Below are positions 1,004 through 19,637 of a stretch of DNA of 20,192 bases, piece after piece. The notes beneath the pieces were generated by a model. It was not told where the DNA came from. It did not search any database and was given only the letters and a program-made list of their open reading frames with translations. The DNA lies in IMG/VR virus record IMGVR_UViG_3300005293_000200, positions 5,591 to 25,782 of that record, one strand, 5' to 3'. The DNA is from a virus. The first letter of the stretch is position 1; every line of letters begins with the position of its first letter. The position numbers and the translations under genes are program-made.

Positions 1004-3807
1004 GAGGTTGAATCCCCGACGATCGTAACGCGTGACGCGCCGAGACTCATGGAGTCCAGACCCAGGGGGATGGACGCACTCAACAAGAGGTACCGGGACG
1101 GGAAGTTGTCGTCGGGGTCATCGTCATCGAATCGAATCGTCGTCCCCACTTCGATCCAAGGGTAGACGATGGTGCCGACGTCGATGGTGAACTGCTCCAG
1201 GGCATTGATCTTCAGCAGGGCCACGGCGGTCTCGTCGGCCTGCGCCTGCGTCGTGATGAAGCTGGAGGTATACACAAACGTGCGCTCCCCGAGCTTGGCG
1301 ATCGACGTAGGAGAGTTCGGAAGTTCGTTCCGGGCTTCCGCACGGAACACCACGGTGCGGTCGGTCCCCTCAGCGATCACCACGATGTGATTGAAGACTC
1401 GCTCGTCGCTCGTGCTGCGGTCGTAACTGCCGACGTTGCTCTTGCGGCCATCCGCTCCGAGTCCAGCCCTGCGAGCTACGAGGTTCAGGTAGATGGGAGC
1501 AGTCAATGGGTCCACGAACTGACGCATCACAAGCCAGCCGCGGTGGTCGAAGAACAACTCGTACCCGAAGTCGTTCGCAATCTTCTTGGCGATCTCCCAA
1601 CGAGACTGACCAGTCTCGAAAGTGAAATCCTTGCCGATCTGCTTGCCGGTCGGAGGGATCAGCATGTCGAAGATGCCAGAGTTAGCGGCCAGGGCTCTGA
1701 TCACAACTGCGATCTCGGTGCCCTCAGTGAACGTAACCGCCTCGGTCATCTTGGAGAGCATCATGCGCTTGGTGAGATCACGCAGGGTCAGCTTGAAGTT
1801 GGCGCTCTCGGATCCCTCGGAGATCCTGTCCGCCATGAACGATCCGATCTGCCAGACCAAGGTCGCATTGGCGTAGCTGGGGTCGCGGTGATACGGGCTC
1901 AGCGTGATCCCGCGGTAGAACTTGAACACCTTGTCGTACCACAGGCCACCGGGACCGATGCTCGCTTCGGGAAGCCAGATCTCGCAGTCTCCGGACCGTC
2001 GCTCGTCGCGGTCGTAGTCAACGTTCACCGAGCCACTGATCAACGGTGCGTTCTCGATCCACAGCGATCCATCGGGGTTGTGAATGTCCAGGCGACGATA
2101 CGGGAAGGTAACGGGGTCTTCGAAGAATGAAGCCTCCAGGTCGGAGGGCGGACCGTTCATCTCAACGATGCCGAAGTGCGTGACGGCAGGCGCGACGTCT
2201 GAGGGGGCAGGAATGGTCTCGGCCGGGACGCGCGCCCAGTTGACCTGATCGAACTCCATGTTCGTGGTGCCAGTCGCCAAGACCTGATCGCCTGGCATGA
2301 AGAAGATTCCGTCAAAGATTCCCGGAGTAGTCACCGTCCAGTAGTCACCGTCATCGTAGGTGTCGCTGGCGTTCAAGAACATCTGAGTGATCAGCGTGCG
2401 GTCAGCATCGGTGATCGCTGACCGCAGAATGGCTCCGGCGTAGAAGTCGAAGTTTGCGTACTGGCTGTTCTCGTTGGAGCTACCGATGCGGATGTCAGCG
2501 AAGCGCTGACTGGAGCCTTGGAACGGGTCGACGGCAACCGTCGTCTGGCCACCGGTCTTGGTCCAGAACTTCTGTACCGACAATTGCCGGTCAACTGTCA
2601 GAACAACGGCTTCTGGGACGGTGGTCGTGGCGGTCTCGGCCACGGTGGTCTGTGTGCCCATACCGGCGCGAGCGACCCGTGACGTGAGCGCAGCGCCGCT
2701 CGTAGCCGTCGCGTGGATTGCCTGCCCTCCCATGAGGGAGGCTGGCTGAGAGTCGAACAGGCGGGCACCTGACGGCTGTGTGGGTTCGATGAGACCCGCC
2801 AGGATGACTGTCGAGGATTCCTCTGGCCCGAATGCCGCTCCGCCACCTATCGGACGCTTGAGGATCGCTCCACCCACGGTGGCGCTCTGTCCGGCCGGGA
2901 GCGCCAGCGGAAGCGACGTAGCGCTCTCGTCGTAGATCACGTCGGCGTCGATCCGGAAGACCTCGCTGGTCAATCCGATGTCGCTGCCGTTGATCGAGCC
3001 CCGCAGGATGGCCGTCTTGACCCGACCGTAGAGGCGTTCCTGGTTCCCGTCCCGTGCGCCCAACTGGATCGGAGCGCTGGTGCTGGCGAAGAATGATGTC
3101 GTGACGGAGGGATCCGTGTGCGTCGACAGGACCGTCATTGAAGTCGGCTCAGAGAACGACTGCGAAGTCAGGAAGCGCACCACATTGCCGCCCGCCCCGT
3201 TGTTCACATCGTGAGTCACAGCCACCCAGAGATCGCCACTGGAGGAAGGGACCACCGAAGCAGCCGAAGTCAACTGGAACTCATTGGACCCGTTCGTGCT
3301 CCAGTTGTAGATCAGTTGCCCCGCGCCGTTCAGGCGCAAGAGGATCACCTTGTTGGTGCCAGGGAGCCAGCGCGAGAAGAGGGTCTGGACCCCACCCGGC
3401 GTCCAGTCGCCCGCCGCCAGCTTGACCATCAGCGTCAGGTCGCCAGCCAAGTTGTAGTTGGCATGAGAGGGGGCAGTGATGAGTTGACCCTCCTGTGCCC
3501 GGAAGTCGAAGTACCCTTCGGTGTAGGGCGCTGCGCCGATCGAGATGGAGTCGTTGGTGCCGTCCAGCAGGATGGCCGAACGCTCGCTCAGCGTGTCGGC
3601 GTCGAAGAACGCCGGAGTACCGAGCGTCACTCCCTGGTGGCCGATGTTGGGCGACAGGTTCGGAAGCTCAATCCCGACCAGAGCACCGGCATCGGACCAC
3701 CAGGCCACGTCCGGCTCATCAAGCCGACGCATACCCTTGCCCTTGGGGTACGTGTGCCAGCGGAACTCCTGATGCGCTCCAGCGTCAAAGCTGCCACGGT
3801 TCGGCAT
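1000..3807 (-). CDS. Minor tail protein: LamG-like domains fused to a baseplate-hub-like region
   Basis: A 935-residue protein starting at ATG 3807, one base after the stop of the preceding tail gene. Residues of about 55-320 look like a concanavalin/LamG-type beta-sandwich (SERSAILLDGTNDSISIG, then GDLTLMVKLAAGDW, then LYGRVKTAILRGSINGSDI). A second sandwich of about 340-490 ends in FYAGAILRSAITDADRTL, the usual closing strand and helix of such domains. Residues of about 550-935 (YRRLDIHNPDGSLW onward, with RWEIAKKIANDFGYELFFDHRGWL) resemble the tail hub proteins of siphophages (XkdQ/gp27-like, or the DUF5047 type of actinophage tail proteins). It probably sits at the tail tip, combining a structural hub with sugar-binding modules. 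An Asp-rich stretch, RFDDDDPDDNFPS, lies near the C-terminus. Domain names are from pattern recognition, not a search. Confidence 0.78.
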   Translation of the reverse strand: MPNRGSFDAGAHQEFRWHTYPKGKGMRRLDEPDVAWWSDAGALVGIELPNLSPNIGHQGVTLGTPAFFDADTLSERSAILLDGTNDSISIGAAPYTEGYFDFRAQEGQLITAPSHANYNLAGDLTLMVKLAAGDWTPGGVQTLFSRWLPGTNKVILLRLNGAGQLIYNWSTNGSNEFQLTSAASVVPSSSGDLWVAVTHDVNNGAGGNVVRFLTSQSFSEPTSMTVLSTHTDPSVTTSFFASTSAPIQLGARDGNQERLYGRVKTAILRGSINGSDIGLTSEVFRIDADVIYDESATSLPLALPAGQSATVGGAILKRPIGGGAAFGPEESSTVILAGLIEPTQPSGARLFDSQPASLMGGQAIHATATSGAALTSRVARAGMGTQTTVAETATTTVPEAVVLTVDRQLSVQKFWTKTGGQTTVAVDPFQGSSQRFADIRIGSSNENSQYANFDFYAGAILRSAITDADRTLITQMFLNASDTYDDGDYWTVTTPGIFDGIFFMPGDQVLATGTTNMEFDQVNWARVPAETIPAPSDVAPAVTHFGIVEMNGPPSDLEASFFEDPVTFPYRRLDIHNPDGSLWIENAPLISGSVNVDYDRDERRSGDCEIWLPEASIGPGGLWYDKVFKFYRGITLSPYHRDPSYANATLVWQIGSFMADRISEGSESANFKLTLRDLTKRMMLSKMTEAVTFTEGTEIAVVIRALAANSGIFDMLIPPTGKQIGKDFTFETGQSRWEIAKKIANDFGYELFFDHRGWLVMRQFVDPLTAPIYLNLVARRAGLGADGRKSNVGSYDRSTSDERVFNHIVVIAEGTDRTVVFRAEARNELPNSPTSIAKLGERTFVYTSSFITTQAQADETAVALLKINALEQFTIDVGTIVYPWIEVGTTIRFDDDDPDDNFPSRYLLLSASIPLGLDSMSLGASRVTIVGDSTS

Positions 3808-3808
3808 G

Positions 3809-5548
3809 TCAGGAGACCTCGCTGTACGGGATCGTCACTTCAGCAAACTCACGCCTTCCTACACCGGCCATCCGGCTGACGGCGATGTTCCCGATGGACA
3901 CTTTCCAGATGTGTCCGAACGGGACTCGCAGGAAGGCATCAACCCTCCCCGCCTTGAAGGCTTGGATCTCTACCAACTCAAGAGAGGAACCGCGTGCATC
4001 GAGATCACGCAGGTGACACGTCAGTGAACCTTCGTAGCCCCAGCGAGTGCCGATCTCCTTGCGGCGACCGCGCCCGATGATCAGATCGGTGAACTCTTCG
4101 TACTCATCGGTGAACGAGTCGGCCACCACCGAACTGAGTGCCAGGTTGAAGGTGGGATCAGTGCCGTGGATCAGCCAGTACTTGTTGCTCTCAGGCAGGG
4201 CCACCACGGACGAGATCGGACTCTCGGACGTCTCGTTGAAGTAGCGGAAAGCAACCTGCGAGATCCCGTACTCGTAGGTACGCCCGGACTCAAACAGGTA
4301 GTCCAAGATCTCACCACGTCCGCTGCGCTGAGTGCTGGTGCCGATCAGTTCCCAGGCCGTCACACCCTGGATGCGGCGGTAGGCGCGCCACTCCTTGAAG
4401 GTTGGGTCAGCCAGGTCGGCGTTCCACGTCACCTGCACTGCCCCCACTGCCGGGTCGTCCACCGAGCCGGTGTCCACCAGCATGGCCAAGGGTGAGTCGG
4501 GGGCAGGCCAGGCAGCGGAGAAGCGGATGGGGACGCTGGTTCCCTCAAAGGAACTCGTGTCCCTGACACTCACCGTCACTTCGTACAACTCTGTCAAGTG
4601 GATCAGGGCCGGGATCTGATGCGTGCTCGCCTGACCCGCCAGCCACCCCGAGTCGTAGAGCGTCGACAGGCCCGACTTCACCACCACGCGGTAGTGAGTC
4701 TGCCCAGCCTGGTCGAGCGAATCTTCCAGCACTTCGGTGTAGCTGGCGTTGTTGGATTGGAGCAGCGCGTACGTTGCGTAGTCAGTAGCAACCGACGCAT
4801 ACGTCGCCTGTGGTGCGTTGCTGGTCGAGAAGGCCCAGCGGACGATGGGGGCCGGGTTGTTCACGACCCCGTTGTTCGTCGGCTCCAGGATGATCGCTGT
4901 CGGATTGACACCGATCTGGACAAGGGTTGGGTCCGTCCACGGGGAGTCGATGTCGTAGAAGTCCCAGACCCGCACCTGCCAGTAGAAGAACCCCTCGCTG
5001 TTGGCGGGAGCGATCGCCTGAGTGTGCTGACGAACGGTGCTGTTCACCTTGCCGGTGTCGAACAGGAGAGCGTCGTTGCCTGCGTGGTACGCGCGCACCT
5101 GATACGCCGTCTGGACGTCGGACGGGTCTCCGTCACTGAACGTCCAGTTGAACACCAAGTTGCCGGTGCCGTAGGCGACCTTGGACCCGTGCGAAGGGGT
5201 CATGTTGCTTACGAACGGGCGGTGATCGACCTGGAAGATGTTCGTACCCGACCAGCCCGACTCCACGCCTGCCCCATCGGTGGACTTGGCGCGGATGTAC
5301 CAGACGTTGGCGGTCAGCCGAGTGGTGACTGGCTGCTTAGCTACCTGCCCGGACGAGTACCGGATGGCCGTGGTGACCTGCTGCAAGTTCGTAGTGAAGG
5401 CGGAGTTCGTTGCAAGCTGCCAGGTGACGGCGACCCCGGTCTCCTGGGCTCCACCCGACGCGTACTGCACGTAGGCCTGAAGCTCCGGATAGTCGGTCAG
5501 CACGAGACCGTTGTGCGGGGGCTGGATGTTGGAGGGGATCGCAGTCAT
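3809..5548 (-). CDS. Minor tail protein with fibronectin-like repeats and distal-tail-like C-terminus
   Basis: A 579-residue protein directly downstream of the tape measure gene; its ATG shares a base with the tape measure stop (TGATG). The first 450 residues look like about four beta-sandwich repeats of fibronectin III or immunoglobulin type (about 1-112, 113-225, 226-345 and 346-450). Each carries an aromatic core strand such as VWYIRAKSTDGAGVESGWSG or FFYWQVRVWDFYDIDSPW. The last 130 residues (YWLIHGTDPTFNLAL, EEFTDLIIGRGRRKE, then AEVTIPYSEVS) resemble the distal tail protein domains that follow tape measure genes in siphophages. The likely role is joining the tail tube to the tail-tip complex, with the repeats exposed to bind cell-surface sugars. 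Position and domain order support this; the exact family is not certain. Confidence 0.78.
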   Translation of the reverse strand: MTAIPSNIQPPHNGLVLTDYPELQAYVQYASGGAQETGVAVTWQLATNSAFTTNLQQVTTAIRYSSGQVAKQPVTTRLTANVWYIRAKSTDGAGVESGWSGTNIFQVDHRPFVSNMTPSHGSKVAYGTGNLVFNWTFSDGDPSDVQTAYQVRAYHAGNDALLFDTGKVNSTVRQHTQAIAPANSEGFFYWQVRVWDFYDIDSPWTDPTLVQIGVNPTAIILEPTNNGVVNNPAPIVRWAFSTSNAPQATYASVATDYATYALLQSNNASYTEVLEDSLDQAGQTHYRVVVKSGLSTLYDSGWLAGQASTHQIPALIHLTELYEVTVSVRDTSSFEGTSVPIRFSAAWPAPDSPLAMLVDTGSVDDPAVGAVQVTWNADLADPTFKEWRAYRRIQGVTAWELIGTSTQRSGRGEILDYLFESGRTYEYGISQVAFRYFNETSESPISSVVALPESNKYWLIHGTDPTFNLALSSVVADSFTDEYEEFTDLIIGRGRRKEIGTRWGYEGSLTCHLRDLDARGSSLELVEIQAFKAGRVDAFLRVPFGHIWKVSIGNIAVSRMAGVGRREFAEVTIPYSEVS

Positions 5549-8500
5549 CAGTTGGCCAATGCTCGCAGGTTCTCGATGAAGTCCTTGGCGTCTCCGCCGT
5601 TCTTGATATTCGGGAATTCCAGATTGCCGTTGATGTTGATAGTAGTCCCAGCACCGGTCGCGCCGTCATCGATGGGGAGGATCTGGAACTGCTCGCCCTG
5701 GCGACCCTCCGACATGGCGATGTTGACGCCACCAGGAATGTGCGGGACCTGGAAGCGGCCACCACGAGCCATCGAGGCGTGAACGTGTGTGCGGTGATCG
5801 CCAGCGATGTCGGCCCGGAAGGTGTGGTCCTTGCCGTTCCAGACGTTGCGGGCTCCCGGAGCGGTGAAGATCAACTCATGCAGGTACGGCTTGAAGGCGT
5901 CGTACAGGGCGTGGTTGACCCGCAGAAGGTTCGCCTGCGTGCCACCGAAGTCCATGGCGCGGTTCAGAGCGTGCCAGGACAGGTTGCCGGTGCGAGCAGT
6001 GTTGCGGTTGGCGTAGGTGCCCAGGTTCGTGTAGGGGATGTTCATCCGCTTGAGCAAGGTGACGAACGCTTGCCAAGAGCCAGAGCCCTGGGTGATCGGG
6101 ATGCCGTTGGATGTAGCACCAGAACCGGTGGGGCCGACGCCACCGATGTTCGCTTCCAACATCTGGTCGCGCTGGGCGGCGGCATCGTCCCACTGACCAC
6201 TGCGGCCTCGCACCCAGTCGTCCATGGTGCCGATGATGCCGTGCGCACCTTCACGCAGGAAGTTCATGGGGATCTTGTCGGCAGCGAACCCGGCCGCATT
6301 CTTCAGGGGATTCCACAGAGCAGTGAGCGCTCCGCGAACGACCGCCTTGCCAGCACCAACCACGGCACCGATGGCCTTGTCGAGCCAACTGCGGTTGTCT
6401 TCCTTGGGTGGCGTCGGTGGCTTCCAGGACTGACCAGCCCGACTCAAGGTCTCAAACTGGCTGACGACTCCACCCGTTGCGAGCAGACGTGTCCCCGCCT
6501 GTTGCAGCAAGCTCAATGCGTTGCCCCGGTACTGAGGATCGGTCGGGATGACGAACTCCGGGTAAATCTTCGACCCCTCACCGACGATCGCTCGCGGAGC
6601 GTTGTAGACCCCGCCATGTGCATGTGTGGGCAGGATGCCACCGGTTGCGTAGGCGTTGACTTTGGGGGCGGCTCCACCGGATGCCTGAGCAGGCCAACCA
6701 GGGAACGAACTGTCGATCCGAGTCAACTTGAGCGGATCCATCGGGGTCACGCGAGCATCAATCGACAGGAAGCCAGCAACCGCATTGACGGCTCCGGCGA
6801 GCAGGTTGAAGGCTCCAATGAACAAGTTCACGCCACCCTCGATCACCGAGGCGATGAGATTCCAGACGTGAGCAATGATGAAGTGGATGCCCTGCATCAC
6901 AGGCTTGATCACACTGTCACGCAGGAAGTTGAAGGCAGGGGCGACCACGTTCTGGAAGATGTCCATGAACCGGTCGAACACCGGAGCGATCATGTTGTCG
7001 AACACCCAGCCAAGCGCTGTACCCAGGCTTCGGAAGATCCGCTCGCCCTCTGTCCACGCCCATGTGAAGGCCGGGACGACGACGTTATCCACGGCGGCGT
7101 CAATGTGATTGAAGACGGGCTCGATGACGTTCGCCCAGACCCAATCAATCCCAGCACCAAGAAGTTGCCAAGCTCGACTGGCTTCGGACCGCAGCCAGTC
7201 AAACCCGATGACGGCCAGGTCGACCGCCTCGCCCATCATCATGAAGATGCCCTGGAGAGCCCCCCACCCGATCTGGAAGGCCATAGTGATGAGCTTCCAC
7301 GCGATCTGCGCCGACACGCTGAACAATTCGAAGATCGGAATGATGTACCCGTCGATGCGATCCCAGAGCCACCCGAGGATTGTCGAGACGGTGGCCCAGG
7401 ACTCCTGGAACACCAGGACGATCGCGCCCCAAGCAGTGGTGGCGACCAGTTGGACGGCACCGAATGCCGTCGAGAACCAATTGAACAAGGTGTCATAGAC
7501 GGTCTGGCCGAAGTTCTGAACCGGAACAACGAGGGTCTGCCACAGCACATCCCAGACCGCCGTCACCTGCGCCCAACCGGCCTGTATTGCTTGCCAGATC
7601 GGCTGGATGACGTGATCGTTGGTCCACTGCCAAATCATCGCCCCGTTCTCAGTGAAGATGCGGAGCAACCCCTTGAAGATTCCTTCCCAGGTGTCATTCC
7701 ACCACGTCCAGAGATTTCCGAGGGCTGTCTTGAGCGGCCCAATAAAGTCGAGATTCTTCAACTCATCAATCTTGCCCTGGATGGTGCCCAGGATGTCCAG
7801 GTTGCCCATGTCAGCAAGGGCCTTCTCCAGTTCATCCTGCATCTGCTTGTTGAATGCCTCGATCTCAGCCAGGCCACCCTCACGACCCAACTGACCGGTA
7901 CCTCCCTGGTCGGCCCAGTCAAGACCTTCACCGGCCTCAAACAGGCTGCCAGAACCGGCCAGTTCCTCGCTCACGCCCGCCATGTCCTTTATCGCCTGCT
8001 CCGCCTCTGTGGCAGCGGAGGCGAACTCGGTCATGGCGGATTCCATATCTTGGATCAGATCCTTGATAGCGGAGTACGCCGACTTCAGTCCGTCGAGCTT
8101 CTGCTCTTCGATGTCGAGTTGCGCTGCAATTCCCTCACGCGCCTGCTTGGCCGCATCAATGGCCTCGCGCTCACGCTCAACCTGATTGCCAATCTCTTCG
8201 TACTGCGGAGCGAGAGCGTCAACGATGCCCTGTTGCTCCCGGATCTGCCGGACGATCTCATCGAACGGCATCTCGACCATGCGGTTGGCGATCTTGTCGA
8301 TCTGCCGCTCCAGTGGATCGAAGTTGATCGCCTTGGTCAACTCAAGGAACCGCTGCTCCAGATCCAGCGCATCCAGCTTGCCTTGGATGGCCTCGATCTG
8401 ATCCTCGACCGCTCCCATCTCCTTCTTCTGCTCACCGATGGCGGAGATCTGATCGTCATACCAAGACAAGATGTCGGAGCCAGCGCCAGCGTTACGCAAC

Positions 8501-11163: not shown

Positions 11164-12014
11164 CTATCGGCGTCGTCCTGCTCGTCGTCCACTACCAGCG
11201 GACCCCTGCTTCCGGGCCTGCTGTTGCTCCTTCTTCTTCTGTCTCGCCCTCTCGACCTTTCCCTCGATCTGAGCGATAACCAAGAAGTCATCCAGCATCT
11301 TCGGATGTTGATCGTAGAGCCCCCCGCCTATTGGCAGGTGTGTCCACTTCATCATCTTGCAGATTGTGTAGAGCCTCAGGGACTCGTGCAGCGCGCCCTC
11401 GATGGGCTTCTCGTTATAGAAGGCCTCCGTTTGGGCCTCTAGGATTCTTTTCCCTCTTCTTCCGCCCGCTTCTGCTCCAACTGCTCTTGCAGTTCACCGA
11501 TCTGATTCTCCAGATCCTCGATGGTCATCTCGTTGAGCAGCCACGGATTCTGCTTGCGGACAGCCTTGTCCACGATGTCGATGATCACCGGGTTGGCCTT
11601 CTCCAGCCACTCGTAGATCTTCGGCTCCTTGCACGGGACCGGGGTCATCTCTCCGGTCTTGGGATTCCTGCTCACCAGATTCCAGCCGACGATGGCGTTG
11701 GTCAGCAGGATGCGCCGCTCGTCGCCGTTCGCCAACTGCATGATGGCGTCACCGGTCTGCTTGGCGATCTTGACCTCACGGTTCACCTTGTTGAGATACT
11801 GACGGCGGGCACCTTCGTTGAGGGCCTGGATCGTCACATAGCTCTTGCCGTCAGGCAGAGCCACGTTCTCCGTCTCTTCGAAACCGAAGTAGTCAGCCTG
11901 CACCGACTCTTCAGTCGCGAGCCCTGCGTCGTCCATGGCCTGAGCATTGCGAGCGAGACGCTCCGCCTCGGCCGCTTCGGTGTCGATGGTGTCGATGGTG
12001 TCTGTTTCACTCAT
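11164..12014 (-). CDS. Tail assembly chaperone, frameshifted long form (gpGT-like)
   Basis: The long product is read by a -1 ribosomal frameshift. Translation starts at ATG 12014 and runs 189 codons in the first frame to the slippery heptamer at 11454-11448. It then continues one base back from 11448 (R I L E A Q T E) for 94 more codons to TAG 11166, about 283 residues in all. The extension has a short conserved-looking part (CKMMKWTHLPIGG, DQHPKMLDDFLVIAQIEGKV) and ends in a strongly basic Lys/Gln/Arg tail (RARQKKKEQQQARKQ, then RRAGRRR). In lambda, the equivalent gpGT binds the tape measure and recruits tail tube subunits. The extension has no start codon of its own with a ribosome binding site, which supports expression only by frameshifting. 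The tape measure start follows the TAG directly. Confidence 0.9.
11421..11454 (-). promoter_or_regulatory. Programmed -1 frameshift signal: slippery heptamer plus hairpin
   Basis: On the minus strand, G GGA AAA occupies 11454-11448 in the correct phase (GAG GGA AAA GAA TCC TAG). It matches the X XXY YYZ rule and differs from the lambda G GGA AAG signal only in the last base. Nine bases after it, AGGCC (11438-11434) can pair with GGCCT (11425-11421) around an eight-base loop, with one flanking G-U pair. The stop of the short form lies between the heptamer and the hairpin. The -1 frame stays open for 94 codons to the next gene. Confidence 0.92.
11439..12014 (-). CDS. Tail assembly chaperone, short form (gpG-like)
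   Basis: A 191-residue acidic protein that ends at TAG 11441 just after the slippery site. The N-terminus is Asp/Thr/Glu-rich. The middle (ADYFGFEETENVALPDGKSYVTIQ, then GARRQYLNKVNREVKI) looks like the core fold of siphophage chaperones that act with the tape measure during tail assembly. The C-terminus is a Glu/Gln coiled coil (ENQIGELQEQLEQKRAEEE). A strong Shine-Dalgarno sequence (AGGAGG) lies five to ten bases before ATG 12014, partly inside a small hairpin. The role is inferred from position between tail tube and tape measure and from the frameshift; it is not part of the finished virion in known relatives. Confidence 0.9.
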   Translation of the reverse strand: MSETDTIDTIDTEAAEAERLARNAQAMDDAGLATEESVQADYFGFEETENVALPDGKSYVTIQALNEGARRQYLNKVNREVKIAKQTGDAIMQLANGDERRILLTNAIVGWNLVSRNPKTGEMTPVPCKEPKIYEWLEKANPVIIDIVDKAVRKQNPWLLNEMTIEDLENQIGELQEQLEQKRAEEEGKES

Positions 12015-12071: not shown

Positions 12072-12149
12072 TCAGACCCTCTTGGCAAAGTAGATGATCG
12101 CCAGGATCACGAGGATCAGGACGAGGATTCCGAGCAGTCCGTAGCCCAT
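12072..12149 (-). CDS. 25-residue single-span membrane peptide
   Basis: A very short gene whose ATG overlaps the HNH gene stop (TGATG). It has a clear ribosome binding site, GGAAGGAA, eight to sixteen bases upstream. The peptide begins MGYGLLGILVLI, continues as an unbroken run of Leu/Ile/Val/Ala, and ends YFAKRV; the positive end suggests that the C-terminus faces the cytoplasm. It has the form of a minimal one-helix membrane protein. It is followed by a 57-base gap before the chaperone gene. A longer in-frame reading from 12275 would run antisense-like through the HNH gene and lacks a comparable ribosome binding site. Function is unknown: it could act on the host membrane, in lysis control or in exclusion, or be carried along with the HNH gene. 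Confidence 0.65.
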   Translation of the reverse strand: MGYGLLGILVLILVILAIIYFAKRV

Positions 12150-12571
12150 CAGGCGATGTTCCTTCCGATTCGATTGGGTGAGCCTACCGGACGCCCCATG
12201 CGACGCCGTGGTGCAAGAATCTTCACGGGCTGAGTCTCCAGGTGGACGATCCAGTTGCAGTTCCAGCAGAGGCAACGGTAGTCGGTTGAGCCGTCGACAA
12301 TCTCGTTGCGAAGGCGACGGTAGTACCCGATGGCTCCACCGCTCTGGTTCTTGCGTTCCTGCGAGCCACCGCCACTGATGTGGTCAATGGTGAGGGCTCG
12401 CTCGTCATCGAACCCGCACCGCGAGCACTCGTGCCCCAGCACATCGTAGATGTCCTTCTTGTACTCGATCATCTTGCGAGCGTTGTACTCGCGCTGTCTC
12501 CGGGCGTTGCCCTCCAGCCGACGAGCACGCTCTTCCGGGGAGCAGCGGGGATCGTTGGCGTAGACGGTCAC
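12149..12571 (-). CDS. HNH endonuclease, freestanding
   Basis: A 140-residue protein with GTG start three bases after the tail tube stop. The zinc-finger HNH core is plain: Cys49-x2-Cys52 (CSRCGF), ALTIDHISGGG with Asp63-His64, then RCLCWNCNWIVH with Cys102, Cys105, Asn106 and His110. The N-terminus is a basic helix (ERARRLEGNARRQREYNARK) and the C-terminus is Arg-rich, both suited to DNA contact. Such genes in phage late regions are usually homing endonucleases that spread between related phages, though some HNH proteins act in DNA packaging. The position between tail tube and chaperone genes, away from the terminase, favours the homing type. No strong Shine-Dalgarno precedes the GTG, so expression may be low or coupled to the tail tube gene. 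Confidence 0.88.
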   Translation of the reverse strand: MTVYANDPRCSPEERARRLEGNARRQREYNARKMIEYKKDIYDVLGHECSRCGFDDERALTIDHISGGGSQERKNQSGGAIGYYRRLRNEIVDGSTDYRCLCWNCNWIVHLETQPVKILAPRRRMGRPVGSPNRIGRNIA

Positions 12572-14170: not shown

Positions 14171-14644
14171 CTACAACTTGGTGGTTTCGGTGTCGATTTG
14201 GATGTCGGTCTCGCACAGGAAGTACATAGCGAAGTTCCTGCGACCCTGCAAGAGTGACTGGCGCGTCACAATCAAGCGCTTGAATCGCTCACGGGAACCA
14301 AGATAGTCTTCCTGCATCGCGCCTAAAGCTACACTGAGCGTGGCGTCGCGGTACAGTATTGCCCGGATCTTGCGTTGATCGTTGGTCATCTGCGTATACG
14401 CAGCCTGGATGTCACCATGGATGACGAGGTTCTGGAGTTTGATCTGGTAGTGGTTGATCGCTGGCTCCCGGTTGCCGATCAACGTCGTCTCCGGGTCGGG
14501 CGTCCAGGTTTGCGGGAACACGGAGAGGTACTTGTCAAGAGATGTCGGATCGAGTGGCTCGGTCTGCACCTTGTAGCCATCCAGTTCCGTGAAATGGAAC
14601 TCCAGGGTGTCCCGGATCTCATCAACGAACTGGAGCGGGAACAT
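14171..14644 (-). CDS. Probable tail terminator protein
   Basis: A 157-residue protein whose ATG overlaps the stop of the preceding connector gene (TGATG). It has the size, position and look of tail terminators (lambda gpU type): a short helix with QFVDEIRDTLEFHF, a beta strand with GYKVQTEPLDP, LIGNREPAINHYQIKLQNLV in the middle, and CETDIQIDTET at the end. In known phages the terminator caps the tail tube and mates with the head connector. Alternative: another connector or a minor tail protein. Identification relies mainly on gene order and on the alpha/beta pattern. Confidence 0.65.
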   Translation of the reverse strand: MFPLQFVDEIRDTLEFHFTELDGYKVQTEPLDPTSLDKYLSVFPQTWTPDPETTLIGNREPAINHYQIKLQNLVIHGDIQAAYTQMTNDQRKIRAILYRDATLSVALGAMQEDYLGSRERFKRLIVTRQSLLQGRRNFAMYFLCETDIQIDTETTKL

Positions 14645-15165
14645 CAGGCCAGGCCCGTCCAGAGGTAGGTGTCGAATAGCTGCTGGATGACGGCCTCTTC
14701 GTGCTCACCCAGGGCCAGGACCGGACGGGCCGGAGTATCTCCACCGAACGGGTTGGACCCGGCAGGCTCGCCCTCTTGGGCCGTACGGATCTTCTTCTCC
14801 ATCGTCGGATCGGAGCGATCCGGAATCCGCAGAAGGGCTCCCAGGGGGAACGCCTCCACAGCGTGGTCGTACGCCAAGTGAGCGATCATGTCCCCGCTGC
14901 GCTCGTTGGGGGCGTCCGAAGGCGCACCCAACGCGCGCTTGAGTCGCTCCGTATACAGAGCGAGCGGGGGCCAGGGACCACTGGCAGCATCGCCCTCCAT
15001 GGCGAAGCGATCCACGATGATGTCGCCCATGTAGGGGCTGACGTACTTCTCCAAGAACCACATGAGGCGGGTAGTGCTGAGGCGGTCCGCCACCGTGTCT
15101 ACCATCTTGATCGGACCCTTGGCGTCAACGATGGGCGAGACGATGAGGGAGGGGAGGCCGCGCAT
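14644..15165 (-). CDS. Head-tail connector / virion morphogenesis protein (gp10/gpG-like)
   Basis: A 173-residue protein with ATG 15165 sharing a base with the preceding stop. The segment GPWPPLALYTERLKR, followed by NERSGDMIAHLAYDHAVEAFP, is the signature of Mu gpG / HK97 gp10-like morphogenesis proteins, where a mature-sized block ends in a small residue and a short T/SG(D)M turn. These join the tail to the head or complete the tail. The C-terminus has a long acidic stretch (ALGEHEEAVIQQLFDTYLW). The call is a pattern match in the right gene-order slot. Confidence 0.7.
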   Translation of the reverse strand: MRGLPSLIVSPIVDAKGPIKMVDTVADRLSTTRLMWFLEKYVSPYMGDIIVDRFAMEGDAASGPWPPLALYTERLKRALGAPSDAPNERSGDMIAHLAYDHAVEAFPLGALLRIPDRSDPTMEKKIRTAQEGEPAGSNPFGGDTPARPVLALGEHEEAVIQQLFDTYLWTGLA

Positions 15166-15722
15166 CAGTGCCCCCGTGGATACGGGAAGCGTGGCCCGAA
15201 GCGAGATCCGTCACGGGGAGACCAGACCGCATCACTTCCCTGCATGACGTTCTCTTCGAAGGCAGCATTGGGCGAGTAGGCGTCGATGTTGTAAGCGCCA
15301 GGAATGCGAGCGTACGGGTCAACGTCGTCGGGATCCGTCGTCGGGTCCAGAGGGAAGCCTTCGCTGTCGACCAAGGGTGCCGACAACCGGACGGTGCCGT
15401 CCTGGACTGCCTGCAACTCAAGGTCGGCTTCACGGACCAGCCACAGGCCGTACTGATGGAGAGCGTTGTCTTCTGTCGCCATCGTCGCCGCCAGGATGAT
15501 CTGACCGGACGCACGCTTGGCGTTGATTCCCTTCAGGAGCTTCACTTGATGCAACGGCAGAGTGTTCACGCCCGCCGTGATGAACGGGGTGACGTACGTG
15601 ACGCCCAGCCGTGCGTCGATGTGGTCTGCGGCCGCGTTGATGTAGTCGATGGCGTTGATCTCGGGTGGCAGGCGAGTGCCCAACTGTCCGAGCAGCAGAT
15701 CAGCAGGAGTGCAGTAGGCCAT
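15165..15722 (-). CDS. Head-tail adaptor protein
   Basis: A 185-residue protein starting at ATG 15722, three bases after the stop of the fibre-like gene. MAYCTPADLLLGQLGTRLPP, then INAAADHIDARLGVTYVTPF and a long helix (NALHQYGLWLVREADLELQA), match the helical bundle of head-tail adaptors (HK97 gp6 / SPP1 gp15 type). Those proteins sit under the portal and receive the tail. The C-terminal third is Pro/Asp-rich and likely extended. The role is by resemblance and position between the capsid genes and the connector and terminator genes. Confidence 0.7.
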   Translation of the reverse strand: MAYCTPADLLLGQLGTRLPPEINAIDYINAAADHIDARLGVTYVTPFITAGVNTLPLHQVKLLKGINAKRASGQIILAATMATEDNALHQYGLWLVREADLELQAVQDGTVRLSAPLVDSEGFPLDPTTDPDDVDPYARIPGAYNIDAYSPNAAFEENVMQGSDAVWSPRDGSRFGPRFPYPRGH

Positions 15723-15725
15723 GAG

Positions 15726-16940
15726 TCACCACGTTAGCTCGATAATGCCTGCATAAGCATTCCACTGGGGTCCCAGCATGACCCTGTAGTTGCTCTGTGC
15801 AGTGGAGAAGGTGAATATGCCGATGCCCTTGACTTCGTTGGAAGCGATGGAGGCCAGGACCCCAGAGGGGATGGGCTCCCAGTCAGAAGCGTCGGCTCCT
15901 GCGTACACACCGGTTGATGTCCAGCCGGTTCCAGCGCCGGTCGGGGCGACACCAGGGTTCCAGCCGTAAGGGTGACCGGTGAAGAACAGAGGGCCAGTAA
16001 AACCTTGCACGCCGTCACGAATCATGAAGATGCGACCGGAGACTGGAGCGTAGCCATGACCGGCGTTGTAAAGCTGGTCCCCATAGAACCACAGACCGAA
16101 GTGTGTGCCCATCGGGGTCGCTGAGAACTGACCCTGGCGGACGGTCCCGTCGTTCCGGTAGGCATTAGCCGTGTAGGCGAAGCTGTTTCCCTCGTGAGGG
16201 ACGAGCAACTTACTGGTCCCCGCCTGCGGTGGAGTCCACACGCTGCGGATGTTGGAGTCGGTGTAGCCAGCGGCGTTGACCACTCGCACGAAGACGTGAT
16301 TGAGGCGATCCCAGCCGCGCCCAGGCAGAGCAACCTGGCGCAAGCCTCCAGCGGTCCCGTATGTGCCTCCGAGCGTCCAGGATCCCTCAGCGTCATTGCG
16401 GTAGTAGACCTGAACGGCCGAGATGTCACCGTAAGGGTTGCCGGGGTCGGTCCACTGCACCTGGAAGTTGGCACCGTCCCACCAGAACGCACTGACGTTC
16501 GCCGCGCCAGGCAGAGCGTTGACGGTGGACACGGCCGGGAAGTTCACCCAAGCGCTGACCTGACCCCCGTTGTCGACCGTTCGGGCCTGAAGCTGCACGC
16601 TGGAACCGTTCGCGTAGCCCGAGCGCTGCTGTGTGGTCCCGGCGTAGTTAGTGCTGATTCGACCGATGTCACCGACTTGCTGGACCTCGACGCGGTTGTA
16701 ATCGTTCTCAGCGTTTGCGGGCCAGGCCCACGACGTGTTGATGATGCCGCCGTTCGCTGCGGTGGCTGCCAGGCTGGTGGGAGCGGGTGGCGGACCATCG
16801 GCGCGCCACGCCAGCTTGTAGGTCCCGGCGTTCCTGACATACAGTTCCTTGAACTTCTGATAGACGCCACCGTCGCGACGGTAGAGATCATCGAAGTCGA
16901 CGTTCCTGTAGACGCCTCCGGAGCGAACCCACAAGCTCAC
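15726..16940 (-). CDS. Fibre-like virion protein with beta-sandwich domains
   Basis: I prefer GTG 16940, which overlaps the previous stop as GTGA and gives 404 residues (MSLWVRSGG). A TTG six codons upstream is also in frame but less likely. The N-terminus has three copies of a short aromatic motif: RSGGVYRNVDFDDLY, RRDGGVYQKFKELY and VRNAGTYKLAW, a type known from phage fibre attachment regions. After a Pro hinge (DGPPPAPTSL) come two fibronectin-like domains (about 50-150 and 150-245). The C-terminal domain (about 250-404) is rich in Trp, Tyr and Gly (GTHFGLWFYGDQLYNAGHGY, FTGHPYGWNPG, IIELTW), as in sugar-binding modules. Its place between the capsid and connector genes is unusual for a tail fibre; it may decorate the head or neck. 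No family name can be given with certainty. Confidence 0.8.
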   Translation of the reverse strand: MSLWVRSGGVYRNVDFDDLYRRDGGVYQKFKELYVRNAGTYKLAWRADGPPPAPTSLAATAANGGIINTSWAWPANAENDYNRVEVQQVGDIGRISTNYAGTTQQRSGYANGSSVQLQARTVDNGGQVSAWVNFPAVSTVNALPGAANVSAFWWDGANFQVQWTDPGNPYGDISAVQVYYRNDAEGSWTLGGTYGTAGGLRQVALPGRGWDRLNHVFVRVVNAAGYTDSNIRSVWTPPQAGTSKLLVPHEGNSFAYTANAYRNDGTVRQGQFSATPMGTHFGLWFYGDQLYNAGHGYAPVSGRIFMIRDGVQGFTGPLFFTGHPYGWNPGVAPTGAGTGWTSTGVYAGADASDWEPIPSGVLASIASNEVKGIGIFTFSTAQSNYRVMLGPQWNAYAGIIELTW

Positions 16941-17485
16941 GTATAGACCGCCCACCAATCTCCGTCGTTGCCCGTACCGTTGACCGGTGCAGTAGCACTT
17001 GAACGAAGAACTGGCTGGTTCACCCCGTCACGCACAAACGTCTTGCCGGTGGCGATCGTCACCGATGTCTGCGCCAGGGTCAAGATGTCGGCAGGCGTAC
17101 CTTCGAAGTCGTAGCGGAACACCAGGGTGCCCGCTTGGCTCTTGACGCCCCAGGACTTGTTGGATCCAGCACCCTTGAGGGTCATCTGTGCGCCCGAGTT
17201 CACCGAGTCAACGGCCTGCACCACGGGGGACAACAGGTTGCCCACCAAGTTCACCCAGGCGGTGCCGTCGTAGAACGTGAAGACCTTGGATCCGGTCAGG
17301 TAGGCGACCATGCCGTTCTCACGAGAACCGGACGGGATCGTGGCGTCGCGGGATGTCGTGTCAGCGAAGCGCATGACCAAGCGCTTCTCCATGTACTGGT
17401 ACGACGAAAGCATGTTCGCCGGGATCGTGGGCGCGTCACCAGTAGTCGGTGTTGGTATCGCTTGCAGTGCGGAAGTTGTCGGCAT
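16937..17485 (-). CDS. Fibre-like minor structural protein
   Basis: A 182-residue protein with ATG 17485 and a good ribosome binding site (AAGGAG). The N-terminal half (SSYQYMEKRLVMRFADTTSR, SRENGMVAYLTGS) is of the type that begins many actinophage fibre and minor tail proteins. It is followed by KVFTFYDGTAWVNLVGN, a common short beta motif in such proteins. The C-terminal half is a beta-rich shaft-like region (SGAQMTLKGAGSNKSWGV, TIATGKTFVRDG) ending in GNDGDWWAVYT. It overlaps the next fibre-like gene by four bases, so the two are probably made together and may form one structure. The virion role is inferred; head or neck location is suggested by position only. Confidence 0.75.
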   Translation of the reverse strand: MPTTSALQAIPTPTTGDAPTIPANMLSSYQYMEKRLVMRFADTTSRDATIPSGSRENGMVAYLTGSKVFTFYDGTAWVNLVGNLLSPVVQAVDSVNSGAQMTLKGAGSNKSWGVKSQAGTLVFRYDFEGTPADILTLAQTSVTIATGKTFVRDGVNQPVLRSSATAPVNGTGNDGDWWAVYT

Positions 17486-17501
17486 TCTTGCTCCTTAAGC
17501 C

Positions 17502-17544
17502 AGTGTGGCCCCGGCACCCATCACCTAGATGCCGGGGCCACGCT
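17502..17544 (-). terminator. Strong GC-rich hairpin between the acidic gene and fibre-like genes
   Basis: On the minus strand, a perfect 12-bp stem (17530-17541 with 17505-17516, GTGGCCCCGGCA type) extends past one C-A mismatch by two more pairs. The loop is 13 bases. It sits in the 66-base gap right after the stop at 17552 and before the ribosome binding site of the next gene. There is no U-run after it, so it is not a textbook intrinsic terminator. It could be an attenuator, an RNA processing site or a mRNA-stabilising end for the capsid messages. Confidence 0.75.
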
Positions 17545-17551
17545 AGTTCGA

Positions 17552-17995
17552 TCAGCCTCCGGAGCGGGTGACTCCCGGCTGGTTCGTGTTGCCGGATGAC
17601 GGCGGGATGCGCCCGGTCTCGGAATCCTTCACGGCCTCGACGGTCTTGCGAGCTTCCTCTCGCCGCTTCTGGTCGACACCACCGACGCCCGCCTTGCGAG
17701 TGGCGAGATCGGTTCCCTCGACCCACTCTTCGAAGGGCACGGGCTCATCGACGTTGACGACGCAGCCCGCCTCGTTCTCGCGAACGCGCTCGATCATGTC
17801 GAGTTCGTCAGCGACCTCTTCCTTGTCTTCCTTCGACCGTCCTGCGGCCTTGGGCTCCAAGGGCTCTTCGTAGGCCGACTGAGCGTAGATCGGGTCGACC
17901 CCGATGTAGCGCGCATCGTCGTCCTTGACCGCCTCGGAATCCTTGGTGGCTTCCTCGTGGTCGAGCGGTTCCGGTGCCTGTACTTCGTCAGCCAT
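17552..17995 (-). CDS. Acidic protein of unknown function downstream of the capsid gene
   Basis: I do not recognise this 147-residue protein. ATG 17995 follows a strong ribosome binding site (AAAGGAG). It is highly charged and Glu/Asp/Lys-rich. It has few hydrophobic residues apart from ARYIGVDPIYAQSAYEEP and CVVNVDEPVPFEEWVEGTDL, which may be short binding motifs; the ends are probably disordered. The strong ribosome binding site and place directly after the major capsid gene suggest high expression with the head proteins. Possible roles are a minor capsid component or assembly helper, but nothing in the sequence proves it. It is flanked on both sides by intergenic hairpins. Confidence 0.8.
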   Translation of the reverse strand: MADEVQAPEPLDHEEATKDSEAVKDDDARYIGVDPIYAQSAYEEPLEPKAAGRSKEDKEEVADELDMIERVRENEAGCVVNVDEPVPFEEWVEGTDLATRKAGVGGVDQKRREEARKTVEAVKDSETGRIPPSSGNTNQPGVTRSGG

Positions 17996-18030: not shown

Positions 18031-19173
18031 TCAGGCGATCGGAACCATCGTGAAGGTGTACTGCATGTACGGGAACACCGGGAAGGCCTTGATGCCGGTC
18101 CCTCGGTCGGTGCCCCACGGATCCTCGGTCTCGCGCTCCCACTCGTAGAAGCCCGCCTGCCAGTTGCCCTCGGGGTGGGGGCTGGTGAGCGTCTTGCCGA
18201 AGCCCAGGCCGTCACCATCCTCCAGGTCAGCGATCTGGCTCTCGTCGGGCAGGAACAGGATCTTGTTCTGCGGGAAGAACCGGTTGTTGGTGGTCACAGT
18301 GCCACCGATCGGCCGCGTGCGGTACACGCTGTCGTAGGCGATGAAGTTGACGCCAGTCGCAGCCTCTACGACCTGGCGAGCACCCTCCTGGTTCCAACCC
18401 GGCAGCACGTAGTCGAGGTCGATCGGAGCGGACGGCGTACCGCCGACCACGAGCCCGGTGCGAGCCACGAACCGGTCGCTGTTGATCATGTTGTTGATGA
18501 CCTTCTGCGACGTGATCGCACGGCTGATCCGGATGCCATGGGTGTCTTCCATGTACTGGACGACTGCCTTGATGTCACCGATCGGATCCGACGTGGTGGC
18601 GCTCCAGAGCCCACCGGCCGGAGCCTGGTCGTGCTGACCGGCCGGACGGCCGAAGTCCACGGTGAAGCGGATCTTGTTGTCGTTGTAGGTGATGCCACCC
18701 GTCGACAACGCCGTCATGATCAGCCACTCGATTCGGTTGTCGAGGCGGCGGCGACGGTTCACGTCGTCCTGAGCGAACTTGCGGCGCATGTCTTCCAGCG
18801 CCGAGCCCACGGTCAAGGGGAGGGAGACCCCGTTGAGACCACCAAGACGGGCGGCGATGAGGGCCTGCTCACGGTAGCGAGCGACGTCGCTGGCCGTGTA
18901 GTGGTCCTTCTGCGCCCAGTCGAGGATGCTCGCCCGACCGGTGCCACCGTAGATGGTGTCCTTCTGGGCGAGTTCCGACTCGGCATCTTCCGACCGCGCC
19001 GGGGCCAGACCACTGGTGGTCGGCTTGGCGTAGTCGAAGATCACGTCATCGGAACCGACCTCACGGAACGGGACGATGGAGAGGCCGATGTGGCCCTGCG
19101 GCGGCTCGATCGCACGGATCGTCGCCAGAGCGACTTCCTTGCGGATCAGCCGATCTTGAGTGGGAACTGCCAT
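18031..19173 (-). CDS. Major capsid protein (lambda gpE type)
   Basis: A 380-residue protein with ATG 19173 and a GAGAGG ribosome binding site. The pattern fits the gpE family of HK97-fold capsid proteins. It includes an N-terminal PFREVGSDDVIFDYAKP, then SLPLTVGSALEDMRRKFAQD, a helix with RLDNRIEWLIMTALSTGGI, the middle DPIGDIKAVVQYMEDTHGI, and TSQKVINNMINSD. The C-terminal domain has NKILFLPDESQIADL and ends FPYMQYTFTMVPIA. It comes directly after a gpD-like decoration gene, the same pairing as in lambda. It builds the icosahedral shell. The N-terminus does not show a long scaffold-like delta domain, which agrees with a separate scaffold gene upstream. Confidence 0.93.
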   Translation of the reverse strand: MAVPTQDRLIRKEVALATIRAIEPPQGHIGLSIVPFREVGSDDVIFDYAKPTTSGLAPARSEDAESELAQKDTIYGGTGRASILDWAQKDHYTASDVARYREQALIAARLGGLNGVSLPLTVGSALEDMRRKFAQDDVNRRRRLDNRIEWLIMTALSTGGITYNDNKIRFTVDFGRPAGQHDQAPAGGLWSATTSDPIGDIKAVVQYMEDTHGIRISRAITSQKVINNMINSDRFVARTGLVVGGTPSAPIDLDYVLPGWNQEGARQVVEAATGVNFIAYDSVYRTRPIGGTVTTNNRFFPQNKILFLPDESQIADLEDGDGLGFGKTLTSPHPEGNWQAGFYEWERETEDPWGTDRGTGIKAFPVFPYMQYTFTMVPIA

Positions 19174-19187
19174 CTTGGATCAACCTC

Positions 19188-19637
19188 TCACTTGAACTTG
19201 AGTTCGACGTTGGGGAGCGCCAGGATGGCGTCCCTCGTGGCGTTGGTCAGCGCGATGGCTGCGCCCGCGGCGTTGTATTCGAAGCACCACGCCTGAACGA
19301 CGGTGGCCTCGTAGGCAACCGCCACGTTGGCGTCCCGCTCCAGGAGTTCCCAGGCCAGGAAGGTGTCGACCACGCCGACGATGTTGGCTGCGGTCTGGCG
19401 ACCGTCAGTCGGGGTGGTCGCCTGGTAGACGCCCACCTTGCCCGAGTCGGCACCGGACGTCGCCTTGGCGATGACCGTTCCCGGCTGGAGCACCTTCTGG
19501 ACGTCACCGTCGATCGTCACAGACGGAATGAGAGCCTTCCCGAAGGTGTAGCTCTCGTACTTGACGTCCTGCGTCGAACGCAGGTACTGGTTCTTGCCGA
19601 AGGGGCTGCGAACCGTGTCGGACTTTGCGAAGTGCAT
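19188..19637 (-). CDS. Head decoration protein (lambda gpD type)
   Basis: A 149-residue protein with ATG 19637 behind AGGGAG. The pattern VLQPGTVIAKATSGADSGKV, followed by GVYQATTPTDGRQTAANIVG and a later hydrophobic strand pair, matches the head decoration family (HDPD). These bind as trimers on the expanded capsid and stabilise it. It is longer than lambda gpD (110 residues), mainly through an N-terminal arm (SPFGKNQYLRSTQDVKYESY). It lies between the protease/scaffold and the capsid genes, the lambda order. Confidence 0.88.
   Translation of the reverse strand: MHFAKSDTVRSPFGKNQYLRSTQDVKYESYTFGKALIPSVTIDGDVQKVLQPGTVIAKATSGADSGKVGVYQATTPTDGRQTAANIVGVVDTFLAWELLERDANVAVAYEATVVQAWCFEYNAAGAAIALTNATRDAILALPNVELKFK

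Follow-up and report, generated by a model that had tools for sequence, protein, structure and literature searches.

Two adjoining genes with fibre-type features, here called g1 and g2, lie among the head genes of an uncultivated siphovirus, which raises the question of what their products form and where on the virion this structure would be attached. The window, the whole stretch of 20,192 nt that was analysed, comprises positions 5591-25782 of IMG/VR record IMGVR_UViG_3300005293_000200, a 25.8-kb fragment of a virus belonging to the ReqiDocB7/GTE7/Woesvirus group. On the basis of the major capsid protein (MCP; 48-52 % identity), its closest cultured relatives are the Rhodococcus phages ReqiDocB7, Perlina and Mbo2, the Gordonia phages GTE7 and Woes and the Tsukamurella TIN phages, several of which have been grouped in a published survey as unusually long-tailed siphophages (PMC13313380).

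Gene content and conservation of the capsid-connector region

All structural genes of the window are carried on the minus strand, in the order protease end, decoration protein, MCP, acidic protein, g1 and g2, followed by three connector/completion genes, the major tail protein, the tail chaperone, the tape measure and the tail-tip genes (Table 1). Profile matches, together with synteny with a related IMG/VR contig, IMGVR_UViG_3300018481_000030 (hereafter L002), confirmed that two adjoining genes, both on the minus strand, are situated as originally predicted, with the capsid block on one side and the head-tail connectors on the other. Elsewhere in the window, an HNH-endonuclease-like ORF (12149-12571; CSRCGF..DHISGGG, by eye) is inserted between the genes for the major tail protein and the tail chaperone, and at 11164-12014 the tail chaperone gene is followed by an overlapping short ORF, an arrangement that likely yields a frameshift product, matching the annotation in relatives.

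Table 1. Features of the g1-g2 locus and its structural neighbours, with coordinates in the window
Feature	Position	Strand	Evidence or remark
Decoration protein	19188-19637	-	PHROG head decoration, 4e-46
Major capsid protein (MCP)	18031-19173	-	PF03864, 4.9e-18; phrog_29, 1.3e-53
Acidic gene (IGVDPxY protein), upstream flank of the insertion	17552-17995	-	47 % to L002; motif and position alike in most relatives
Strong hairpin	17500-17546	-	16-bp core stem 17541-17505; between acidic gene and g1
g1	16937-17485	-	Small fibre protein of 182 aa; L002 homologue 73 % identical
g1 N-terminal domain	17485-17237	-	Common to Streptomyces phage tail-module proteins
g2	15726-16940	-	Fibre/adhesin of 404 aa with GTG start; L002 homologue 57 % identical
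g2 residues 1-46, three tandem (L)(W/Y)xRxxGVY copies	16803-16940	-	0/2000 shuffles reach the score, in window and L002
g2 residues 47-143, FN3-like domain 1	16512-16802	-	phrog_2589 tail protein, 5.8e-5; chitinase A1 FN3, E = 0.03
g2 residues 144-238, FN3-like domain 2	16227-16511	-	PF00041, E = 0.0013
g2 residues 239-404, aromatic tip domain (plus stop)	15726-16226	-	phrog_11445; HMM; hhalign
First head-tail connector, downstream flank of g1-g2	15165-15722	-	Homologous to the 'head-tail adaptor' of ReqiDocB7 and others
Second and third genes of the connector series	14644-15165, 14171-14644	-	Profile matches and synteny with L002

Full-length homologues of both genes occur in L002, and since they have been kept there as proteins and in the same order, g1 and g2 can be considered real genes. 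The two contigs are further alike in the MCP (84 %), the neighbourhood, the equivalent site occupied by the pair and the presence of a hairpin ahead of g1, while L002 differs in the addition of a second fibre cassette between the portal and protease genes, with a GDSL esterase plus FN3; the record of the window stops short of this region. The predicted overlap of the two genes also exists, although it probably extends over 4 nt, from a GTG at 16940, and not over the 22 nt given by a TTG at 16958. Judging by L002, where g2 begins eight bases after g1 at the equivalent of GTG 16940, this GTG, whose overlap with the stop of g1 reads GTGA, is probably the start of g2 rather than the upstream TTG. 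The gene order kept in the window and L002, and the GTGA overlap in the window, point to a coupled pair.

Beyond these two contigs, tblastn comparison of the g1 and g2 proteins against phages gave no match at 1e-5, with weak matches only at E <= 10, and pattern scans for both in viral contigs found L002 alone. No relatives of g1 were found in bacterial genomes, and a PDB sequence search with both proteins returned nothing apart from weak FN3. The family thus has two known members only. The GC and GC3 of the pair resemble those of the adjoining genes and it is therefore not obviously recent foreign DNA.

The MCP and first connector could be mapped in 95 distinct virus and phage contigs, which together with the window gives a set of 96. 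The distance between them exceeds 1.21 kb in L002 alone among the 95 (2/96 with the window included), with an interval of 1210 nt in contig L178 that contains a putative HNH-endonuclease-like gene. The gap is filled in relatives by a short gene for an acidic protein that has an IGVDPxY motif, and both in the window and in L002 the fibre pair comes after this gene and before the first connector; the acidic protein of the window had no family match. Considering that g1 and g2 are missing at this site in the 94 other related contigs, they represent a rare two-gene insertion.

The hairpin that precedes g1 is strong (dG -40.7, z -5.8; reached in 0/200 shuffles), and its equivalent in L002 is a 17-bp hairpin of different sequence. 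Simple hairpins of <=-28 kcal/mol are present in the MCP-connector interval of 58/80 mapped contigs, as against 44/480 control intervals, with sequences that differ and exact positions that vary among the relatives. The hairpin was consequently rejected as a part of the g1-g2 insertion, since hairpins of this kind often follow the capsid gene in relatives that lack the pair. It probably sets the levels of capsid mRNA versus downstream mRNA, or shields the end of the capsid mRNA. The location of a rare insertion (2/96 contigs) just past a strong hairpin, where cargo genes often sit, would agree with a moron-like pair that acts in the infected cell or is secreted, and does not form a virion fibre. 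However, such hairpins are general in relatives without the pair, the domain content of the two proteins is wholly of the virion-adhesin type and no signal peptide was apparent in either on by-eye inspection, and a moron-like role is regarded as improbable.

Domain composition of the g1 and g2 proteins

Both proteins had been predicted to show motifs of fibres or sugar-binding proteins, of which the fibre-type motifs could be substantiated, while no sugar-binding family was matched. Residues 7-81 of g1 matched phrog_16452 in the PHROG scan (E = 2.9e-9), an N-terminal match to small tail proteins of the phrog_16452/Rowa gp20 type, and HMM comparison matched g1 to Rowa gp20 (1.2e-5) and Samy gp25 (2.5e-5) of Streptomyces phages. 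The genes for the latter two proteins belong to the tail-tip clusters of tail modules, flanked by hub or minor tail genes on one side and by the endolysin on the other, and the annotators of Samy link gp25 to the Listeria phage PSA receptor-binding protein. The C-terminal half of g1 is not common to this type; beyond the N-terminal domain the sequence is beta-rich and shaft-like, with a C-terminal TGxDGD motif. Being small and coupled to g2, like many fibre assembly proteins, g1 could alternatively serve as a maturation or assembly factor for g2 (neck-passage-like or chaperone) and not be part of the fibre. This role appears very improbable, as g1 incorporates fibre-type motifs (ENGMVAYL..FTFYDGTAWV and the terminal TGxDGD), matches fibre-like PHROGs and matched no chaperone family.

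The triple aromatic repeats predicted in g2 were recovered as three copies of ~11 aa (SLWVRSGGVYR, DLYRRDGGVYQ and ELYVRNAGTYK), which outscore 2000/2000 shuffles in both genomes. Fibronectin-like domains had also been predicted, and two are plausible but weakly matched (Table 1). The profile of domain 1 matches the tail-tip protein of L002 (1.4e-6), while the best PF00041 score in g2, 19.4 bits in domain 2 only, falls under the Pfam gathering threshold of 25 bits, and the domains are for this reason labelled FN3-like. Between the g2 copies of the window and L002, the repeats are 44 % identical, the FN3-like domains 65-66 % and the tip 51 %. AlphaFold2 modelling of each protein, using two-row alignments, gave poor models, with mean pLDDT values of 33.8 (g1) and 35.6 (g2).

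The C-terminal domain of g2, described at the outset as Trp/Tyr-rich, is real, is rich in Trp, Tyr and Gly, and has relatives. It matches positions 1844-1993 of the 2001 in phrog_11445, which comprises very large minor tail proteins (E = 6.7e-5), and its hhalign comparison with outside tail fibres gave 95.7 %. An HMM constructed from the tail-fibre C-termini of Larnav gp64 (Streptomyces phage) and Rossellomorea phiT1 matched g2 of the window at 2.5e-7, the sole non-training match among 17,840 ORF segments. In Larnav gp64/phrog_11445 of the Streptomyces BE phages and in phiT1, the tip domain shared with g2 closes tail-module proteins of 1100-2000 aa, whereas in the window it closes a 404-aa head-module protein. 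g2 therefore has the C-terminal profile match of the phrog_11445 type but not its tail-module gene location, since it is separate from the virus's tail-module tip gene and sits between capsid and connector genes.

The tail-tip protein of the virus itself (1455 aa; FN3 3e-15) is encoded at 1264-5631 of the record, just outside the window edge. The hhalign comparison of its profile with the g2 tip gave 87.6 % and a score of 41 (60 column shuffles <=21), and that with the outside fibres gave 96.3 %. By these profile comparisons, the C-terminus of the own tail-tip protein falls into the tip family of g2, and so does that of its counterpart in L002. An origin of g2 by recent copying of this C-terminus was rejected, as an HMM built from just the two own-type tail tips does not recover g2 at E <= 0.01.

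Attachment site of the putative fibre

Leaving the attachment site aside, the sequences make it likely that g1 and g2 constitute a fibre or adhesin. The best reading, with a probability of roughly 45 %, is that of an accessory adhesion fibre of tail-fibre type, which would be encoded in the head operon and mounted at the tail end, a site favoured by the fact that, for either end of the fibre, the relatives that can be recognised are tail parts. The two genes would be translationally coupled and their products made from the late transcript, with g1 forming the base and short shaft of the fibre, and g2 the outer part, comprising the repeats, the FN3-like spacers and a surface-binding tip domain of the tail-tip family. 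Both proteins would be part of a single fibre, carried on the virion at the tail end and not at the head or neck, which may bind glycans and could give the virus additional, low-affinity contacts or binding sites on a polymer of the host surface.

The original prediction had proposed head fibres, capsid-bound adhesins or neck whiskers. The adhesin character is upheld by the repeats, FN3-like domains and tip, while attachment to the capsid or neck is not supported, the one argument for it being gene position. A head or neck fibre, where g1 would dock on the capsid, portal collar or connector and g2 would project and tether the particle to polymers of the host surface until the tail reaches its receptor, is kept as a possible reading, at rather less than even odds, in view of where the genes lie and of precedents in phi29, P68, RcGTA and A-1(L). 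The pair has as its immediate neighbours the acidic gene of the capsid block and the first connector, to which it is coupled, and this position argues weakly against a tail site and in favour of a head or neck part.

The fibre gene of phi29 adjoins the major capsid gene, a likeness to the g1-g2 locus. The head fibres of phi29 (gp8.5) and Staphylococcus phage P68 sit on the capsid (PMC9863714), whereas g1 and g2 are known from their genes alone and no sequence relation to the former was found. The RcGTA head spike, which binds capsule polysaccharide, is like the proposed fibre a two-protein adhesive structure of base plus fibre (Rcc01079/Rcc01080; PMC7296036), but no homology was seen and capsid attachment of g1-g2 would be a guess. 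Similarly, the neck fibre of Anabaena phage A-1(L) (gp82-gp81-gp80) consists of a base, a repeated part and a distal binding part as separate proteins, but it too lacks visible homology to g1-g2 and its genes are far from the other structural genes (PMC10966104).

Fibres and spikes are encoded in the head blocks of several relatives, and those fibres that belong to families filed as head, in L018 and L002, are in line with a head or neck site. Extra genes totalling >1.5 kb occur in the portal-protease interval of 8/73 mapped contigs, with similar genes in the relative L018. The L002 interval (1152-8150) encodes a GP4 fiber I homologue (1152-1559; PF23140, GP4 fiber I protein gp80, 6e-16), a fibre with a tail-tip motif, a 1343-aa GDSL esterase with five FN3 domains and further small genes, making up the second fibre cassette in its head block, and L002 also has a phrog_240 head protein match. 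At 149-7333 of L018, a phrog_2647-family fibre (head decoration, 4e-58), with tblastn matches to Myrna gp111, annotated as head decoration, adjoins a GH5 cellulase-FN3 protein among head genes, and the same head block includes a YadA-stalk fibre. A pectate-lyase-like beta-helix is found in the head block of ReqiDocB7. Directly after the portal, Gordonia and Tsukamurella phages encode a protein, spike-like in Gordonia phages, of which an N-terminal domain of ~140 aa is constant while the C-terminus varies and may be a hydrolase, an esterase, a beta-helix or none of these (L028:3306-5816, L176:713-2248 and 96 phage records). ReqiDocB7, GTE7, Woes and the Tsukamurella TIN phages resemble the window in head-to-tail gene order and MCP, and several have post-portal head-block spikes or fibres, but they contain no capsid-connector insertion and their spikes are unrelated to g1 and g2.

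None of the head-block fibre or spike proteins of the relatives is detectably related to g1 or g2. Neither protein matches the head-type families phrog_2647 (head decoration) or PF23140 (GP4 fiber I), and Pfam and PHROG scans of both at E <= 1 identified no head-fibre family of the phi29 gp8.5 kind. Their detectable relatives are tail-module proteins, which counts against a head or neck site, as does the lack of correspondence between module and gene position in this phage group. In Mbo2, the constant N-terminal domain found in Woes gp9 has a counterpart (26 % identity, 6e-6) at 30.2 kb, past the genes for the tail tip, endolysin and holin. The group thus moves such modules from one end of its late operon to the other, between head and tail. 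Given this domain in Mbo2 and the spikes and fibres held in the head blocks of relatives, gene position is weak evidence for the attachment site. It is unlikely that g1 and g2 are true head or neck fibres of a siphovirus with a tip of the same family as that of its own tail; if they were, the particle would dock on one polymer class from both ends.

Adhesins in the head operon of the phage group

On the preferred reading, a tail-fibre-type adhesin would be encoded between capsid and connector genes, which is an unusual site. With Gordonia and Rhodococcus relatives in culture, the attachment site of the head-block fibres can be tested. More generally, phages of this group accept adhesins, esterases, cellulases and spikes into the head operon, so that the location of such a gene says little about where on the virion its product sits, which matters when 'head fibres' and 'minor tail proteins' are annotated.
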